IMG/VR virus record: IMGVR_UViG_3300023179_000089
Location: 1-64,000 of that record
DNA length: 64,000 nt
Direction: 5' to 3' (one strand)
Source of the DNA: a virus
Shown piece after piece: positions 14,921 to 46,475 of this stretch (positions are counted from its first letter, which is position 1; each line of letters opens with the position of its first letter). Under the pieces are notes generated by a model, which made no database searches, was not told the origin of the DNA, and was given only the letters and a program-made list of their open reading frames with translations. Made by a program: the position numbers and the translations under genes.

Positions 14921-15646
14921 ATGAAAGGAAATAAATCTGGAAAAGGCGTATTCGGTCAATATAAAGGATACCAACTAATGGAAAGCCAGATTCGTTATGC
15001 GATGAGCAATACTACTTCAAATGCAGAAGCGGCAAAATGGCTACATGTATCATTTTCTACATGGAAGAAATATGCAAAACGATATATCGACTCGGAAACG
15101 GGTAAAACGCTATTTCAGCTACACAAAGAGACTGGGTTTGCACAAAGATTAGTGCTACCAAAAACAAAATACAGAAGAAAAGCTTCTTCGCCATGGGCAT
15201 TTCAGCCTCTTCCAATGGCCGACATCTTTGCAAACAAACATTTAAGATACTGTATTAGTCGATTCAAAGATCGTTTAGTAAAAGAAGGGTGGAAGGAAGA
15301 GCGATGCGAAATATGCGGATATCAAGATCGAAGAGTTTCAGATTATGAAGTACCGCTGCGAATTAATTGGCTCGACGATAATAAACGTAATTATTCTTTG
15401 GAAAATATTCAGTTAATCTGCCACAACTGTTATTTCATACATGTAGGAAACTTAAACGGCGGTAAATCAAAACAATTTAAAATTGACGAAGTTACCGGTG
15501 AAGTAGTACCTGCAGTTCCAGATCGAAAAACAATACGAGACCAAACTGTACCTCTCGGTCCTTATTTCAAACCTAGAACTTATGGTCAGCCTCTGCCGGA
15601 GTCTCTGGTGAAGAATCTAAAGTCAGATCCGAACCAAGATCATTAA
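14921..15646 (+). CDS. HNH-like zinc-finger protein with N-terminal HTH-like region
   Basis: 241 residues. Residues 20-60 (MESQIRYAMSNTTSNAEAAK, then WLHVSFSTWKKYAKRY) look like a helix-turn-helix. CEICGYQ and LICHNCYF form a CxxC/CxxC zinc site around WLDDNKRNYSLENIQ, which is laid out like an HNH core, but the catalytic histidines are missing or replaced. It may be a DNA-binding relic of a homing nuclease adapted to a phage regulatory role. Its 3' end overlaps a minus-strand gene. Confidence 0.6.
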   Translation: MKGNKSGKGVFGQYKGYQLMESQIRYAMSNTTSNAEAAKWLHVSFSTWKKYAKRYIDSETGKTLFQLHKETGFAQRLVLPKTKYRRKASSPWAFQPLPMADIFANKHLRYCISRFKDRLVKEGWKEERCEICGYQDRRVSDYEVPLRINWLDDNKRNYSLENIQLICHNCYFIHVGNLNGGKSKQFKIDEVTGEVVPAVPDRKTIRDQTVPLGPYFKPRTYGQPLPESLVKNLKSDPNQDH

Positions 15647-18087: not shown

Positions 18088-18276
18088 AAAACAATCGCAA
18101 GCTTGCGCTCTTGTACGTACAGAACTGAATGATTTTGTTGAGTGTAGTGTACGGCGGTGTACGGGGAATGTACATCAATAGTATTGTCATTCAGGTCGTT
18201 CACGTACGTACAGAACTGAATGATTTTGTGTATAGCTAGGTTGTTTCAGTAAAAACAAGCTCCTTGAGTATTAATA
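18088..18276 (+). repeat. Intergenic region with a 25-base direct repeat
   Basis: No gene was seen. The 25-base unit starting GTACGTACAGAACTGAATGA occurs at 18113-18137 and identically at 18204-18228. TCATTCAG (18187-18194) pairs with CTGAATGA (18216-18223) of the second copy. A perfect palindrome CGCAAGCTTGCG lies at 18096-18107 and could end transcription of the preceding gene, although no T run follows. Confidence 0.55.
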
Positions 18277-18354
18277 GGTTACGTAACCAATTAATTTTCA
18301 ATGAAATAAATTCACCAAATTATTTGGTACATGTAGATGAATTACTTATTTTTA
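18277..18354 (+). promoter_or_regulatory. Operator-promoter element 3, upstream of the tRNA-like array
   Basis: GGTTACGTAACC (18277-18288), a 25-base gap, ACCAAATTATTTGGT (18314-18328) containing the -33 TTTG, N20, TATTTTTA (18347-18354), then TGTATAGTAATTAATTA. The first transcribed element is the tRNA-like module at 18400. Confidence 0.75.
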
Positions 18355-18399: not shown

Positions 18400-18472
18400 A
18401 GTCAGGTGGCAGATTGGGATGCAGGTTGCCCGAAACGGTCGCTCTATACAGGTTCGAATCCTGTCCTGACTA
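18400..18472 (+). tRNA. tRNA-like module 1, anticodon uncertain
   Basis: Acceptor AGTCAGG/CCTGACT pairs fully. D-stem GCA/TGC and T-arm ACAGG-TTCGAAT-CCTGT are standard, and total length is 73. The anticodon arm is weak: GGTTG/CGGTC with three wobble pairs and loop CCCGAAA, which would read CGA (Ser) but lacks U33. CCA is not encoded. It may be a divergent tRNA or a tRNA mimic. Confidence 0.55.
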
Positions 18473-18489
18473 CTAAAATAAATAAAGTT

Positions 18490-18595: not shown

Positions 18596-18701
18596 AGTCA
18601 GGTGGCGGAATGGTAGACGCTCATAGTCGGATTGAATGAATTGGGGGACGATCCTCCAACCACGGAGTGCCCAAATACAGGTTCGAATCCTGTCCTGACT
18701 A
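18596..18701 (+). tRNA. tRNA-like module 2 (Leu-like D-arm, enlarged central part)
   Basis: The same acceptor and T-arm as module 1. D-arm GCG-GAATGGTAGA-CGC is typical of tRNA-Leu. Between D- and T-arms there are 56 bases rather than about 23-35. They include a strong hairpin TTGGGGG/CCTCCAA, but no standard anticodon arm could be resolved. Length 106. Confidence 0.5.
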
Positions 18702-19808: not shown

Positions 19809-19836
19809 AAAAAAAATAATCTATTGATACTCAATA

Positions 19837-19913
19837 GGTTACGTAACGCATTGATAGACATGGTAATAAATTTACCAAATGATTTGGTTCGATTGTATTT
19901 TTACTTATCTTTA
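19837..19913 (+). promoter_or_regulatory. Operator-promoter element 4
   Basis: GGTTACGTAACG (19837-19848), a 25-base gap, ACCAAATGATTTGGT (19874-19888), TTTG 19883-19886, N19, TATCTTTA 19906-19913. Drives the RecA-fold ATPase gene. Confidence 0.75.
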
Positions 19914-19934: not shown

Positions 19935-20762
19935 ATGAAAGCAGAAACCAAAACCCTAAAAGTTCGTAAAACTCGTAAAGCTCGTAAAACTCGTAAACCG
20001 CGTACTCCGAGAGCAATGCAAGTTGCATTTAATCCTGATATTGTAAAATTAATTAGAGGTCAGGAATTAGACTTTTCAGACGCCGCTTTAGACCCTATGC
20101 CTACCGGAAAAGAGATTGACATTTTATTGTCGACTGAAGGAGGATTAATGCCTGGAACCAACTTAATGCTTTGTGGTGGACCTGGATCGGGTAAGACAAC
20201 TATCGCGTTAGACATATTATCTAACTTAACTAAATCAGGTTATAAGTGTTTATTCGTGTCAGCTGAAATGGATGAAATACAGCATTATAAGTATTGTAAA
20301 CGTATGCCACATATAGGTTGTGTGCAGACATTGTTTTTGAAAAATTATGCAGAAAACCCGCAACCGGTATTAGAATATGTATTCAATCAAGGTTATGATG
20401 TTGTATGTATAGACTCCTTTGCAGAAGTAATAGAATTGCTCCGCGACGCTTATAAATACTCTGAAGCGACAGCTGAAACTTGGTTATTGCATATTCAGGA
20501 TAGAATGAAAAAAGGTGATAATCCTAACAAGTATTTTACGACATTTATTAATATTCAGCAAGTAACTAAAGGAGGTGACTTTGTGGGATCAAATCGTATT
20601 AAGCATATGACAGACGCTATGGGACATGTAGAAAGAAGTAAAGATGGAATGGAAAGAAGTATATACTTTTCCAAGCATAGAGATTGTGATAAAGATTATA
20701 AATTGCTTTTCGCAATAGGATCTGAAGGAGTTCATTATAGTTATGAGCCTGTTAAAGACTAA
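19935..20762 (+). CDS. RecA-fold ATPase (RadA-like)
   Basis: 275 residues. Walker A GGPGSGKTT at 81-89, a CLFVSAEMD segment and Walker B-like VVCIDSF near 150. A glutamine-containing FINIQQVTKGG near 210 recalls the L2-type region of RadA/DnaB relatives. The first 27 residues are a basic low-complexity tail of KTRK repeats, probably DNA-binding. Likely a recombination or replication accessory ATPase. It has its own operator-promoter and is followed by the DUF932 gene with another. Confidence 0.75.
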   Translation: MKAETKTLKVRKTRKARKTRKPRTPRAMQVAFNPDIVKLIRGQELDFSDAALDPMPTGKEIDILLSTEGGLMPGTNLMLCGGPGSGKTTIALDILSNLTKSGYKCLFVSAEMDEIQHYKYCKRMPHIGCVQTLFLKNYAENPQPVLEYVFNQGYDVVCIDSFAEVIELLRDAYKYSEATAETWLLHIQDRMKKGDNPNKYFTTFINIQQVTKGGDFVGSNRIKHMTDAMGHVERSKDGMERSIYFSKHRDCDKDYKLLFAIGSEGVHYSYEPVKD

Positions 20763-20789
20763 TGCATTGAGTATCAATGTAATTAATTT

Positions 20790-20830
20790 ACCTAAATATT
20801 TGGTAGTTTAAAACGATATACTTATCTTTA
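20790..20830 (+). promoter_or_regulatory. Operator-promoter element 5
   Basis: ACCTAAATATTTGGT (20790-20804), TTTG 20799-20802, N20, TATCTTTA 20823-20830. The distal palindrome position falls in the end of the preceding gene and is not conserved. A CATTGAGTATCAATG inverted repeat lies at 20765-20779. Drives the DUF932 gene. Confidence 0.65.
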
Positions 20831-20855: not shown

Positions 20856-21587
20856 ATGAAAAACCACTTAAAACTTTATCAGATCCCTGACAGTTTAGAC
20901 GCTGCGCAAGCTTTTGCAAAAACAATCTCTGGAAAATACATTCATCCATCTTTACGCAATGCAAATTACATTCCTAGTATTCAACCTGTCGAAGAATTTC
21001 GCAAATTAGGATGGCAAATTACCGGTGTAAGAGATTGGAATACAAATGGAAAACCTTTAGAGAATTCAGTTCAAATGACGCATCCTGACTTCGCAGATTC
21101 AGAATCTAAATTAAATTTATTAATTAATAATTCTGCGAATGGAAATTGGCCAATGACAATGTCGCTAGGACTTTATCGAAAAGTATGCAGTAATGGATTA
21201 GTTGCATTTCGCGAAAATGCGACAGCTGTGATTCAACATAAAGCAGGTGTAGATCTTCAATCTTATATTGATGTACTTAATTCGCAAGCCGCGGAAATAC
21301 ATAAAGACTTTGCGCGAATGAAAGACGTCGTGTTGTCGACAGCTCAAATTGAAGAATTTGCGAAAGCAGCTATTGCAAAACGTTATCAACTTTCTTTAGA
21401 AGAAGAATCGAAAATAGATGTCACTCCATTTTTAACGATTAGAAGAGAAGAAGACGCGGGGCAGGATTTATGGAAAGTATTCAATAGACTGCAAGAAAAT
21501 CTTTCTTTAGATTTTACAGATGCAAAACAATATGTAGCATTTAATCGAGAAATTTCTTCTATGGCTTCGACTTTAGTAACTGCATAA
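20856..21587 (+). CDS. DUF932 family protein
   Basis: 243 residues. PVEEFRKLGWQITGVRDWN, NWPMTMSLGLYRKVCSNGLV and a late DLWKVFNRLQENL segment fit the phage/plasmid DUF932 family. The family is widespread on mobile elements; its biochemical role is unknown. Under its own operator-promoter. Confidence 0.7.
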   Translation: MKNHLKLYQIPDSLDAAQAFAKTISGKYIHPSLRNANYIPSIQPVEEFRKLGWQITGVRDWNTNGKPLENSVQMTHPDFADSESKLNLLINNSANGNWPMTMSLGLYRKVCSNGLVAFRENATAVIQHKAGVDLQSYIDVLNSQAAEIHKDFARMKDVVLSTAQIEEFAKAAIAKRYQLSLEEESKIDVTPFLTIRREEDAGQDLWKVFNRLQENLSLDFTDAKQYVAFNREISSMASTLVTA

Positions 21588-21600
21588 TCAATATATATAC

Positions 21601-21735
21601 ATGAACTCAAAACCTACCCTGACCTGGAATCAATTCACTCAACGTGTTGAAGAGATAGCGCGACAGTATGAATCGAAATCAATAGCTATTCGATTAGCAG
21701 TAGATAAAATGGCAGAGTGTCGAAAATGGTCGTAA
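21601..21735 (+). CDS. Hypothetical protein, 44 aa
   Basis: ATG at 21601, 13 bases after the DUF932 stop; TAA at 21733-21735. Product MNSKPTLTWNQFTQRVEEIA and ending CRKWS. A small helical protein, not recognised. The repeat region begins directly after it. Confidence 0.5.
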   Translation: MNSKPTLTWNQFTQRVEEIARQYESKSIAIRLAVDKMAECRKWS

Positions 21736-21738
21736 TTT

Positions 21739-21845
21739 CTAGGGTTTATTATTAAGTAAATCTAGGGTGATACGAGAGTACACCTAGGGTTTTTTCCGTA
21801 TAGATCTAGGGTTTACATGCTAATACACTAGCAGAAACCCTAGAT
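21739..21845 (+). repeat. CTAGGGT iterons, 22-23 base period
   Basis: CTAGGGT starts at 21739, 21762, 21784 and 21806, spaced 23, 22 and 22 bases, and an inverted AAACCCTAG lies at 21835-21843. Spacers differ, so the repeated part is the short core, as in binding-site arrays. Confidence 0.65.
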
Positions 21846-21855
21846 ATTGGCCGGA

Positions 21856-21880
21856 AATCAAGGGTGAAAATCAAGGGTGA
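21856..21880 (+). repeat. Tandem AATCAAGGGTGA pair
   Basis: AATCAAGGGTGA at 21856-21867 and again at 21869-21880, a 13-base period. Next to the CTAGGGT iterons and sharing the GGGT core. Confidence 0.55.
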
Positions 21881-21993
21881 ATTTCCATGAAAACCAAGCG
21901 AACAAATCGGCGAGCGGGCGTGCATAATTGATTTTTATTGAGACAATAAGTTTTTTCATATAGACCTTGGTCGCAATGGTTAAGGTACCCTTA
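21881..21993 (+). other. Gap between repeat clusters
   Basis: No gene seen. Contains AGTTTTTTCATATAGACC near 21950, nearly identical to the motif at 17772, and TAAGGTACCCTTA, an imperfect palindrome, near 21980. Confidence 0.35.
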
Positions 21994-22080
21994 CCACCCT
22001 CAACCGATACTATCAATACATTAACCGATACTATCCACCCTCAACCGATAATTTATCGATACTATCCACCCTCAACCGAT
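21994..22080 (+). repeat. CCACCCTCAACCGAT and ACCGATACTATC repeats
   Basis: CCACCCTCAACCGAT occurs at 21994-22008, 22035-22049 and 22066-22080. CCGATACTATC or TCGATACTATC occurs three times in between. A GATCCGGGCCCGAT segment follows. With the iterons upstream this makes about 340 bases of dense repeats without a gene, a candidate replication origin or partition site. Confidence 0.6.
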
Positions 22081-22146
22081 CCGTATCCGATCCGGGCCCG
22101 ATAAAAACCAATACCTTTAAACACGTAATCATCAGACTCTATTAAA

Positions 22147-22389
22147 TTGAAACCAATACACGCAATCCATCAAATCTATCGTCAATTTACAAGCGCAACA
22201 CGCATTGCACTATTCAGTTGTGTATTCCATTGCTCGTGTATGCCAGTACGCACTACACACTGCATTTCCGTGCAGCACGTAGATTCCAATTGGCAATCTG
22301 TATGGGTTGAAGAGCGTGATACCATTGTACGCATCGATTCCATACCACTCTTCACCGTCGGAGATTCCGTGCAATACACGCGCTTTTAA
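22147..22389 (+). CDS. Possible small exported or lipoprotein-like protein
   Basis: 80 residues from a TTG; no upstream ATG is available. A short hydrophobic stretch (RIALFSCVFHCSCM) is followed by VDSNWQSVWVEERDTIVRID, which resembles short envelope proteins of Bacteroidota phages with a VEERDTI motif. Base composition is higher in GC and codon use differs from neighbours, so it may be a recent arrival, or not a gene at all. Confidence 0.4.
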   Translation: MKPIHAIHQIYRQFTSATRIALFSCVFHCSCMPVRTTHCISVQHVDSNWQSVWVEERDTIVRIDSIPLFTVGDSVQYTRF

Positions 22390-22407
22390 TTTCATTGAAT
22401 TTCAATC

Positions 22408-22485
22408 GGTTACGTAACCTATTGAGTATCAATGGAATTAATTCACCAAATGATTTGGTAAATTGCTCTTAATTTCATATTTTTA
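22408..22485 (+). promoter_or_regulatory. Operator-promoter element 6
   Basis: GGTTACGTAACC (22408-22419), a 25-base gap, ACCAAATGATTTGGT (22445-22459), TTTG 22454-22457, N20, TATTTTTA 22478-22485. Drives three small genes from 22510. Confidence 0.75.
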
Positions 22486-22955: not shown

Positions 22956-22970
22956 TAATTGTAATTGAAA

Positions 22971-23225
22971 ATGAAAAAAATTAAAACGTTTTCTGTAGAT
23001 CATTTGTTAGGAATGCGTATGAGCTCGGATCGGCCGATGACAGTTAACTTTCGGCAAGGAAAGAAAAATCAAATAACGTGTAGCGAAGTGCAAGTGCTTG
23101 AAGCGAATTGCACAGGACGAAGACTTACGTTGCAGTTCGCAAATGCAAATCGAGAAGTACTTCGACGTCGAGTGTATTTCGAGCATTTCGAGAAAATAGC
23201 TGAAACGTTCGGAGTAGATATTTAA
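22971..23225 (+). CDS. Hypothetical protein, 84 aa
   Basis: ATG at 22971 (a TTG six bases earlier is in frame). MKKIKTFSVDHLLGMRMSSD and RRRVYFEHFEKIAETFGVDI; a basic, probably beta-rich protein. Not recognised. Confidence 0.55.
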   Translation: MKKIKTFSVDHLLGMRMSSDRPMTVNFRQGKKNQITCSEVQVLEANCTGRRLTLQFANANREVLRRRVYFEHFEKIAETFGVDI

Positions 23226-25148: not shown

Positions 25149-25516
25149 TGGAAAAAGAATTTATCCCTTACGAACAAGCATTAGCTTTGAAAGAACTTGG
25201 ATTTGATGAACCTTGTTTTGGGTATCACAATATAGACCCCTATTTAAAAATTCCTGCATTTAACTTGGTTAAACCTTTTGAGCATGAATGGTGTTTACCA
25301 GCACCACTCAAACAACAAGTGTTTAGATGGTTTAGAGAGAAACATGGGTATTATATCTCTGTTTTTAGAACTCATGATAATAATTGGGGAGTTGATTTAT
25401 GGTTATTAGGGGTACATAAACCAAAAGCTACAATTTTTGGAGAAACCTACGAAGAAGCAGAAAATGCTTGTCTAAATAAATTAATTGAATTGACTACTAA
25501 TAGGTTACGTAACTAA
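25148..25516 (+). CDS. Hypothetical protein, 122 aa, related to 24759-25148
   Basis: ALALKELGFDEPCFGYHNID, LPAPLKQQVFRWFREKHGYY and TYEEAENACLNKLIEL are typical of a hypothetical protein found many times in flavobacterial phages. Starts on the last base of its paralogue (TAATG). Its end runs into operator-promoter 7. Confidence 0.65.
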   Translation: MEKEFIPYEQALALKELGFDEPCFGYHNIDPYLKIPAFNLVKPFEHEWCLPAPLKQQVFRWFREKHGYYISVFRTHDNNWGVDLWLLGVHKPKATIFGETYEEAENACLNKLIELTTNRLRN

Positions 25517-25580
25517 TTGATTTTTAATAGAAATAACTTACCAAATTATTTGTTTCATTGAAATTGATTACTTATTTTTA
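25503..25580 (+). promoter_or_regulatory. Operator-promoter element 7
   Basis: GGTTACGTAACT (25503-25514) overlaps the end of the preceding gene. After 25 bases comes ACCAAATTATTTGTT (25540-25554), TTTG 25549-25552, N20, TATTTTTA 25573-25580. Confidence 0.75.
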
Positions 25581-27711: not shown

Positions 27712-28866
27712 ATGACCAAACAAAAAATTTACGCAACCGTAATATCAGAAGGACGATTTATCAAAGCAATAACCCAGGAAGGCCTGGACGTATCTAATCA
27801 AATCGATCGTTCTTTACGTAGAAAAGCATTGGAATCTAATTTAGATTTAGAATTTGATTCTGTAGCTAATTGTTGGAATTTTGCAACTAGAAATACTTCT
27901 ATAGCCCCGGCTCTCGAAGAAGAGTTAGCAGAACCAAATTCAGATCACGAAACTATTAAAAACTTTATTCATAGTTCAGCAAGGCTGAAGCCGGCACAAT
28001 TAATGATCAGCGACTTGAAATGGAAATATCTAGTTCGCTCAGCGATGCGTGGAAAGAACATTATGATGACGGGTCCTGCAGGTACCGGCAAAACTTTGGC
28101 AGCGAAATATTTAGTGCAAGCCTTAGATCGCCCTGACTTCTATTTTAATTTAGGGGCTACGCAGGACCCGCGTTCCACGCTTATTGGTAACACTCATTTC
28201 TCTAAAGAGACAGGAACATACTTTTCAGAGTCGCTTTTCGTAAAAGCTATTCAAACAGAAAATGCCGTAATTTTATTAGATGAGTTATCACGCGCACATC
28301 CTGAAGCTTGGAATATTTTAATGACCGTGCTTGATGTAAACCAGCGTTATTTACGTTTAGATGAAAAGGACGGCTCGCCAACTATTAAAGTCGCTTCTGG
28401 TGTCTGTTTTATCGCAACGGCAAATATTGGAAATGACTATACTTCAACTAGAAAATTAGATAGAGCATTAGAAGACCGATTTACAACCATTGAAATGGAT
28501 CAGTTAAATGCCGAAGCTGAATTTGAACTTTTACAAATGAAATTTCCATTAGCGGTAAAATCGTCACTAAAAGATTTAGCTACAATAGCTGACACTACAA
28601 GAAAAGAATGTAAAGGATCTAATCCAAAATTGACTAACTCTTTATCTACAAGATCTTCAGTGGAAGCAGCCTCGTTGATATACGACGGCTTTTCGTTAGC
28701 AGAAGTAGCTGAAATTGCAATTTACCCATTCTTTAATGATGATGGAGGCGTTGACTCTGAACGTACTTTTGTTAAGCAAGTAGTGCAAAAATATTGCACT
28801 AACCCAATAGAAGAGTCTAAGAAGCCGCTATTCGGATCAGACGATATTGAAGATACTCCTTTTTAA
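27712..28866 (+). CDS. MoxR/CobS-like AAA+ ATPase
   Basis: 384 residues. Walker A GPAGTGKT at 121-128, Walker B ILLDE at 187-191, a sensor-like CFIATANIG and arginine-rich RALEDRFTTIEM. The family works as chaperone-like ATPases with VWA-domain partners; the partner gene follows about 100 bases later. In phages this pair is often named cobaltochelatase CobS/CobT, but no other cobalamin gene is here, so remodelling of a protein complex is more likely. The first 100 residues are family-unknown. Confidence 0.85.
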   Translation: MTKQKIYATVISEGRFIKAITQEGLDVSNQIDRSLRRKALESNLDLEFDSVANCWNFATRNTSIAPALEEELAEPNSDHETIKNFIHSSARLKPAQLMISDLKWKYLVRSAMRGKNIMMTGPAGTGKTLAAKYLVQALDRPDFYFNLGATQDPRSTLIGNTHFSKETGTYFSESLFVKAIQTENAVILLDELSRAHPEAWNILMTVLDVNQRYLRLDEKDGSPTIKVASGVCFIATANIGNDYTSTRKLDRALEDRFTTIEMDQLNAEAEFELLQMKFPLAVKSSLKDLATIADTTRKECKGSNPKLTNSLSTRSSVEAASLIYDGFSLAEVAEIAIYPFFNDDGGVDSERTFVKQVVQKYCTNPIEESKKPLFGSDDIEDTPF

Positions 28867-34003: not shown

Positions 34004-34390
34004 GGGGGCGAATGGTATAGATTGACAGAATAGTTCTTTGAGATGATGCACGCAGTGCTAGTATTGGAAGCACTTAAATATCCTATATAACGAATAACTG
34101 GAAACGAAATCTCTGATTTCACTTACGAAGACGCTATGGCGTTCGTAAGCGGCGAATATGCTTTAGCAGCTTAATTGCCAACGGGTCGGCGCACATATAA
34201 CCTAGGAACAGAAGTGAATGGATTGGTGAAAAAACAATTGAACCTTAAATCGAATTGTCCATTGGTTGTTAGTTTACGATGGCTGAAGAACAAACTAAAT
34301 ATTTTGAGTCGTTAGAAAATGACATCTAAGCGTGTGAATGAGTCCTTAAATTGTCTGGGCAAGACGAGGGTTCGACTCCCTCCGCCTCCA
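34004..34390 (+). ncRNA. ssrA: tmRNA (transfer-messenger RNA)
   Basis: The 5' end GGGGGCG pairs with CGCCTCC at 34383-34389 to form the acceptor stem, with discriminator A at 34390. The T-arm is GAGGG-TTCGACT-CCCTC. The tag frame starts at GGA 34100-34102, about 97 bases from the 5' end as in known tmRNAs. It begins GNEISDF, ends GEYALAA and stops at TAA 34172-34174. The ALAA end is the usual protease signal. The 24-residue predicted tag is long. CCA is not encoded. It rescues stalled ribosomes with SmpB. Confidence 0.9.
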
Positions 34391-34428
34391 CTAATTCACG
34401 GAGTATTAACCTTTAAATTGAATCGAAT

Positions 34429-46397: not shown

Positions 46398-46475
46398 AGT
46401 TACGTAACCTGTTGGTAGTCAATAGATAAAACTAACCAAATAATTTGGTTAGTATTAACTAATCTCTTATTTTTA
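46398..46475 (+). promoter_or_regulatory. Operator-promoter element 13
   Basis: AGTTACGTAACC (46398-46409), a 25-base gap, ACCAAATAATTTGGT (46435-46449, extended to a 17-base perfect palindrome with flanking A and T), TTTG 46444-46447, N20, TATTTTTA 46468-46475. Confidence 0.75.

Follow-up and report, generated by a model that had tools for sequence, protein, structure and literature searches.

A helically phased AGGGT box array around a conserved T-rich core: a candidate iteron-type replication origin in T4-like phages

At a lambda-type origin the O-protein iterons lie within the O gene and are accompanied by an AT-rich region. The element described here is likewise built of short repeated sites beside a candidate AT-rich unwinding region, but the lambda iterons sit in the O gene and no O-like protein was found here. 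The origins of phage T4 lack a common sequence motif, and one of them, oriE, carries 12-nt 'iterons', evenly spaced direct repeats that are also present in the syntenic regions of relatives and whose role is unsettled (PMC3016281). Like T4 oriE, our element comes from the myoviruses and has evenly spaced short direct repeats. In the annotated oriE, however, the sole repeat array we found has a 24-nt period and is part of the gene 5 coding sequence, whereas the element is gene-free, has boxes of mixed orientation with an AGGGT core word, surrounds a conserved T-run core, and does not consist of 12- or 24-nt direct repeats in or at gene 5. The PLE ori with RepA_N is a case of proven initiator binding that is needed for replication (PMC7145576). 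The element resembles it in being non-coding, with repeated, partly palindromic sites beside a distinctive tract. Unlike plasmid and satellite iteron origins, it has an unrelated box sequence and mixed box orientation, and no RepA_N or other known initiator was found beside it.

The element and its setting

The window, the whole stretch of 64,000 nucleotides analyzed, is part of a viral record of 72,562 bp (IMG/VR IMGVR_UViG_3300023179_000089; 32.4% GC). Judged by sequence the virus is a T4-like phage, because its baseplate protein matches those of Microcystis phage Mel-JY01 (53% identity) and Flavobacterium phage immuto (45%). The host phylum of the phage clade is probably Bacteroidota. The features of the locus are as follows.

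14921-15646, + strand: HNH-nuclease gene, encoding a candidate partner protein
19935-20762: KaiC/RecA-fold ATPase gene, upstream of the array
20856-21587, + strand: DUF932 gene, upstream of the array (DUF932 likewise neighbors the array in immuto)
21601-21735: 44-codon ORF between the DUF932 gene and the array
21736-22085, + strand: whole element (left box array, conserved core, right box array), an architecture repeated in relatives L009-L014
21739, 21762, 21784 and 21806 (span 21739-21812), + strand: four direct CTAGGGT boxes with spacings of 23, 22 and 22
21837-21843, - strand: inverted CTAGGGT box
21855 and 21868 (span 21855-21880), + strand: tandem AAATCAAGGGTGA boxes, with AGGGT at 21861 and 21874
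21871-21996, + strand: conserved core of ~125 bp
21932-21964, + strand: most conserved stretch of the core, TTTTTATTGAGACAATAAGTTTTTTCATATAGA
21981-21993: closing inverted repeat TAAGG-TAC-CCTTA, which ends the core and holds an inverted AGGGT box at 21987
21994-22080, - strand: right array, three CCACCCTCAACCGAT interleaved with three CGATACTATC
21994, 22035 and 22066: the CCACCCTCAACCGAT copies, with inverted AGGGT boxes at 21996, 22037 and 22068
22005, 22026 and 22057: the CGATACTATC copies
27712-28866: MoxR-like ATPase gene, ~5.7 kb downstream of the element

The initial annotation had named the CTAGGGT, tandem and interleaved repeat families, had placed them behind a RecA-fold ATPase gene and a DUF932 gene and had called the region richer in GC than the genome. 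All of the named repeats were located in the sequence, both genes are where it put them, and the element (21736-22085) has 39-41% GC versus 32.4% for the record. What it missed was that a single core word, AGGGT/ACCCT, is common to all three families in two orientations. The word stands on the + strand at 21741, 21764, 21786, 21808, 21861 and 21874, and on the - strand at 21837, 21987, 21996, 22037 and 22068. An 11-bp inverted repeat (arms 21804-21814 and 21835-21845) is also present, and the tandem AAATCAAGGGTGA boxes contain the variant TCAAGGGT, which is the usual box of L009, L013 and L014.

Eleven of the 34 AGGGT copies in the 72.5-kb record fall within 21741-22072, and the second-densest 340-bp window holds two. 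Such a density (11 per 340 bp) has a Poisson probability of ~5e-18, and the maximum in any 340 bp across 200 random order-1 genomes was five. Outside the array 23 copies were found versus 27 expected, and hence the rest of the record is not depleted. The locus therefore has multiple regularly spaced short repeats in a small region, as expected of an iteron origin. The 15-mer CCACCCTCAACCGAT gave 43 single matches in IMG/VR, about chance level.

Several other features of the record were observed. A recurring intergenic cassette of ~100 bp (18261-18332, 19823-19888, 20766-20805, 22386-22480, 25481-25560 and 46399-46449; also in L009-L012) consists of an inverted repeat around TTGAGTATCAAT/TTACGTAAC followed by ATTTGGTA-N-CTTATCTTTATGTATAG; its sequence resembles that of a Bacteroidota-type promoter (TTTG, ~20 bp, TAnnTTTG-like) accompanied by an operator or terminator. 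Directly behind the element are two overlapping ORFs on opposite strands, 22147-22389 (+) and 22210-22395 (-), both protein-like; the + strand ORF had no family match. Positions 22965-23225 encode a conserved protein of 84-86 residues that five of these phages have close to the element; its confident structural model (four strands and a helix) gave no informative fold match. The phage encodes a tmRNA (34004-34391, tag GNEISDFTYEDAMAFVSGEYALAA). Near the tRNA-Ser at 18400-18473, a 106-nt tRNA-like Rfam match (18596-18701) that is absent from the ARAGORN output is possibly a tRNA with an insertion.

Recurrence in relatives and the conserved core

Relatives were found through homologues of the MoxR-like ATPase, and the six that have the element share 60-74% MoxR identity. 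No close relatives were found through the DUF932 protein or the RecA-like ATPase in IMG/VR or among 27 related records. In a scan for clustered k-mers, to which no motif was supplied, AGGGT/ACCCT ranked first among clustered 5-mers in this record, L013 and L014 and first or second in L011 and L012, and overlapping words of the same array led the 6- and 7-mer clusters in L010 (CCCTAG) and L009 (CCCTTGA). A three-box pattern matched seven of 28 records, this record and its nearest relatives only. The repeats are thus conserved in relatives, which the initial annotation had set as a check. The shared design is TCAAGGGT/CTAGGGT boxes in both orientations, a core of ~125 bp and then short tandem repeats. 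These right-hand repeats differ in nearly every phage: other repeats occupy the position in L010, L011, L013 and L014, and none were found in L009 or L012. The contig of L014 (also G006; 11,582 bp) has a 77-bp direct repeat at its ends, indicating either a circle or an assembly k-mer artefact. Repeats of the (G)CTCTATATATAG type fill gene-free stretches upstream of MoxR in L009 (4590-5400), L010 (1092-1657) and L011 (955-1533); no such cluster is present in the window.

The core at 21871-21996, between the box families, is the best-conserved part of the element and was likewise missed by the initial annotation. A core profile found seven phages at 110-133 bits, with a single strong site in each record, the 181.6-kb G001 and the 132.3-kb G004 among them. 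A match is built in for the seed sequences, and the informative matches are the distant and weak ones, those of L054 (24.9 bits) and L266 (21.6 bits), which retain TTTTTAT.G....TTTTTT..TATAGA with different arrays. Looser core patterns re-found L054, L266 and the known clade, added only L298 (similar to L054) and gave many false matches in coding DNA. No significant DNA-level match was found in named phages (there was one insignificant match), and none of 15 matches in a scan of cellular genomes was convincing.

Alignment of ten cores placed the greatest conservation at 21932-21964, which contains a short inverted repeat, a T-run and TATAGA; the T-run and TATA are invariant. This stretch is a candidate unwinding element on sequence grounds, being 33 bp long, conserved and T-rich, yet the region as a whole is richer in GC than the genome. 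In all ten cores the best repeat with a 3-nt loop after TATAGA lay 13-18 nt downstream. The stems of this closing repeat vary widely among phages (TTAAGG/CCTTAA, GAGGC/GCCTC, ATACGA/TCGTAT) with pairing maintained. In a hand-picked alignment five of six pairs were changed on both sides; those sequences were selected by eye, and the 3-nt-loop scan of the ten cores is the objective check. Other helix pairings within the core (AAACCAAG with CTTGGTTT, among others) were good in some phages and broken in others, and we make no claim for them.

The element lies behind a VWA gene in L009-L014, either directly or a few genes later. On its downstream side the genes are not conserved among phages and the element persists. 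Because the neighboring genes differ, the element is not dedicated to any single gene.

Flavobacterium phage immuto is a complete 160-kb isolate, and the strongest k-mer cluster of its genome is ACCCGT, with 13 of 28 copies at 66,273-66,850 (2e-23). The cluster sits in a nearly gene-free, unannotated stretch (66.23-66.87 kb) behind an HNH gene and DUF932, and homologues of window genes 19152 and 22725 are found further downstream. Both sites thus have GGGT-type arrays on the two sides of a center, which in immuto holds TAGTTTTTTTCTATA, and both have DUF932 and HNH genes upstream. They differ in that the immuto boxes (ACCCGT/ACGGGT) have a 12-bp period and the immuto core was not recognized by profile R2, and for these two reasons homology is unproven. 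We regard the immuto array as an analogous, perhaps homologous, site. Two features of Mel-JY01 looked suggestive by eye, GGGGTA-type clusters behind MoxR and, behind VWA, a region free of genes; they were not counted because neither profile supports them. Two gene-free regions of L318 (13826-14832 and 24614-25178, corresponding to Mel-JY01 123.8-124.8 and 134.6-135.2 kb) are rich in short palindromes of the CCCCCGGGGGG type, and in Mel-JY01 such palindromes are spread across several intergenic regions.

Helical phasing and the origin reading

Across seven phages the spacings between boxes on the same strand cluster at 21-23, 32-33, 43 and 53-55 bp, with a period of 10.7-10.8 bp (R=0.77), the helical repeat of B-DNA. 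None of 2000 random placements reached R=0.77 at any period, and the phasing holds without L013 and L014. Spacings between strands are also fixed: that from a - to a + box is exactly 14 in ten cases versus 0.58 expected and that from a + to a - box is 17-19 in eleven cases versus 1.6 expected, several of these cases being supplied by L013 and L014, which are related to each other. The initial annotation had read the regular spacing as a sign of cooperative protein binding, and the helical phasing together with the recurrence in relatives lends this proposal good support.

Because related phages each carry this design once in the genome, we think it very likely that proteins assemble on the element. 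Its best reading is an iteron-type replication origin, to which we give somewhat better than even chances. A phage or host protein would bind the AGGGT boxes on one face of the helix, the half-sites being CWAGGGT, some paired as ACCCTAG-N5-CAAGGGT. The bound protein may then assemble a nucleoprotein complex beside the T-rich core that would open the core and load the replisome, although strand opening and replication start are less certain than binding. A site serving the whole genome would have different downstream genes while the element itself persists, as we found. An origin is further consistent with the single copy, the independence from neighboring genes, the boxes beside a T-rich core and the parallels with the PLE ori and T4 oriE. 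Also in favor are the placement of immuto's strongest k-mer cluster behind DUF932, in a matching gene neighborhood, and the DnaB helicase, DnaG primase and family A polymerase that immuto itself encodes. The evidence favors an origin over other roles for the DNA only indirectly.

The initial annotation had proposed a candidate replication origin or partition site. The array, its recurrence and its phasing speak for the first proposal. The change in GC skew suggested as a check did not appear: no switch occurs at the element in this record, in the long relatives G001 and G004 or at the array of immuto, and nearly all genes are on one strand. T4 oriA and oriC likewise lie away from skew shifts (PMC3016281). 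The partition proposal found no backing, there being no partition-type ATPase or ParB-like neighbor among the genes scanned, and the phages are T4-like. Nor did the neighboring genes scanned encode a Rep, DnaA or O-type initiator domain. The HNH gene has homologues in the long records G001, G004 and G007 (63-64%) and in Mel-JY01 and immuto (31-36%), and it lies ~1-16 kb from the element wherever both are seen. Because the gene is also present in phages in which the element was not seen, its product is only a candidate partner.

Alternative readings

We think it unlikely that the same protein array marks another genome-wide DNA site, for packaging initiation, segregation or nucleoid anchoring. 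The single copy, phasing and independence from neighboring genes would suit any nucleoprotein assembly site, but in immuto the terminase (118.97 kb) is far from the array (66.3 kb), and no partition-type gene was seen among the neighboring genes scanned. A Terminase_6C search of the clade records gave no match. T4-type headful packaging is not known to require a fixed pac array, which counts against a packaging site.

Next in rank, and also improbable, is an operator or enhancer array controlling transcription of a neighboring promoter or operon. A promoter-like cassette does lie 300 bp downstream in the window (22386-22480) and one also follows the element in L010, but the next genes differ between phages and the remaining copies of the cassette in the record have no adjoining AGGGT array.

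After these we place a structured non-coding RNA forming the 3' part of an upstream transcript, which we doubt. In the cases read the element has the orientation of the genes around it, full elements from the window, L010, L012, L013 and L014 fold better than their shuffles (z of -3.6 to -5.5), the core of L010 alone folds at z -4.1 and the closing hairpin covaries. However, the two strands fold to a similar degree, a necessary outcome with inverted repeats, and the covariation is not decisive because a dimeric protein that binds a palindromic site would leave the same signature. There was no Rfam match, and RNAalifold found no pair shared across the ten aligned cores; the closing hairpin alone covaries. 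A recurrent A-A mismatch arises where CAAGGGT opposes CTAGGGT in a potential hairpin. Phasing of the boxes at the B-DNA helical repeat has no explanation in RNA, and hence we favor an array of protein bound to double-stranded DNA.

Repeats that arose by chance, or a transient mobile or degenerate repeat lacking function, would fit the complete turnover of the right-hand tandem repeats among close relatives but are most improbable, given the 11 boxes versus a random maximum of five, the fixed spacings and a core kept over deep divergence, a conservation that already contradicts them.

We found no description of the element in the searchable open-access literature, including that on iterons of Bacteroidetes phages. 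Starting from the origin reading, we put forward, tentatively and with more doubt than conviction, that these sites represent an undescribed origin class of T4-like Bacteroidota phages, in which each genome would have one helically phased GGGT-box origin around a T-run core and a phage-specific initiator, perhaps the HNH protein, with box and initiator co-evolving. With the element and its probable counterpart in immuto, an isolate with a laboratory host, origin choice in T4-like phages would become directly testable. The box and core variants provide a natural series for finding the initiator, and in uncultured phages the element may mark where the origin lies.
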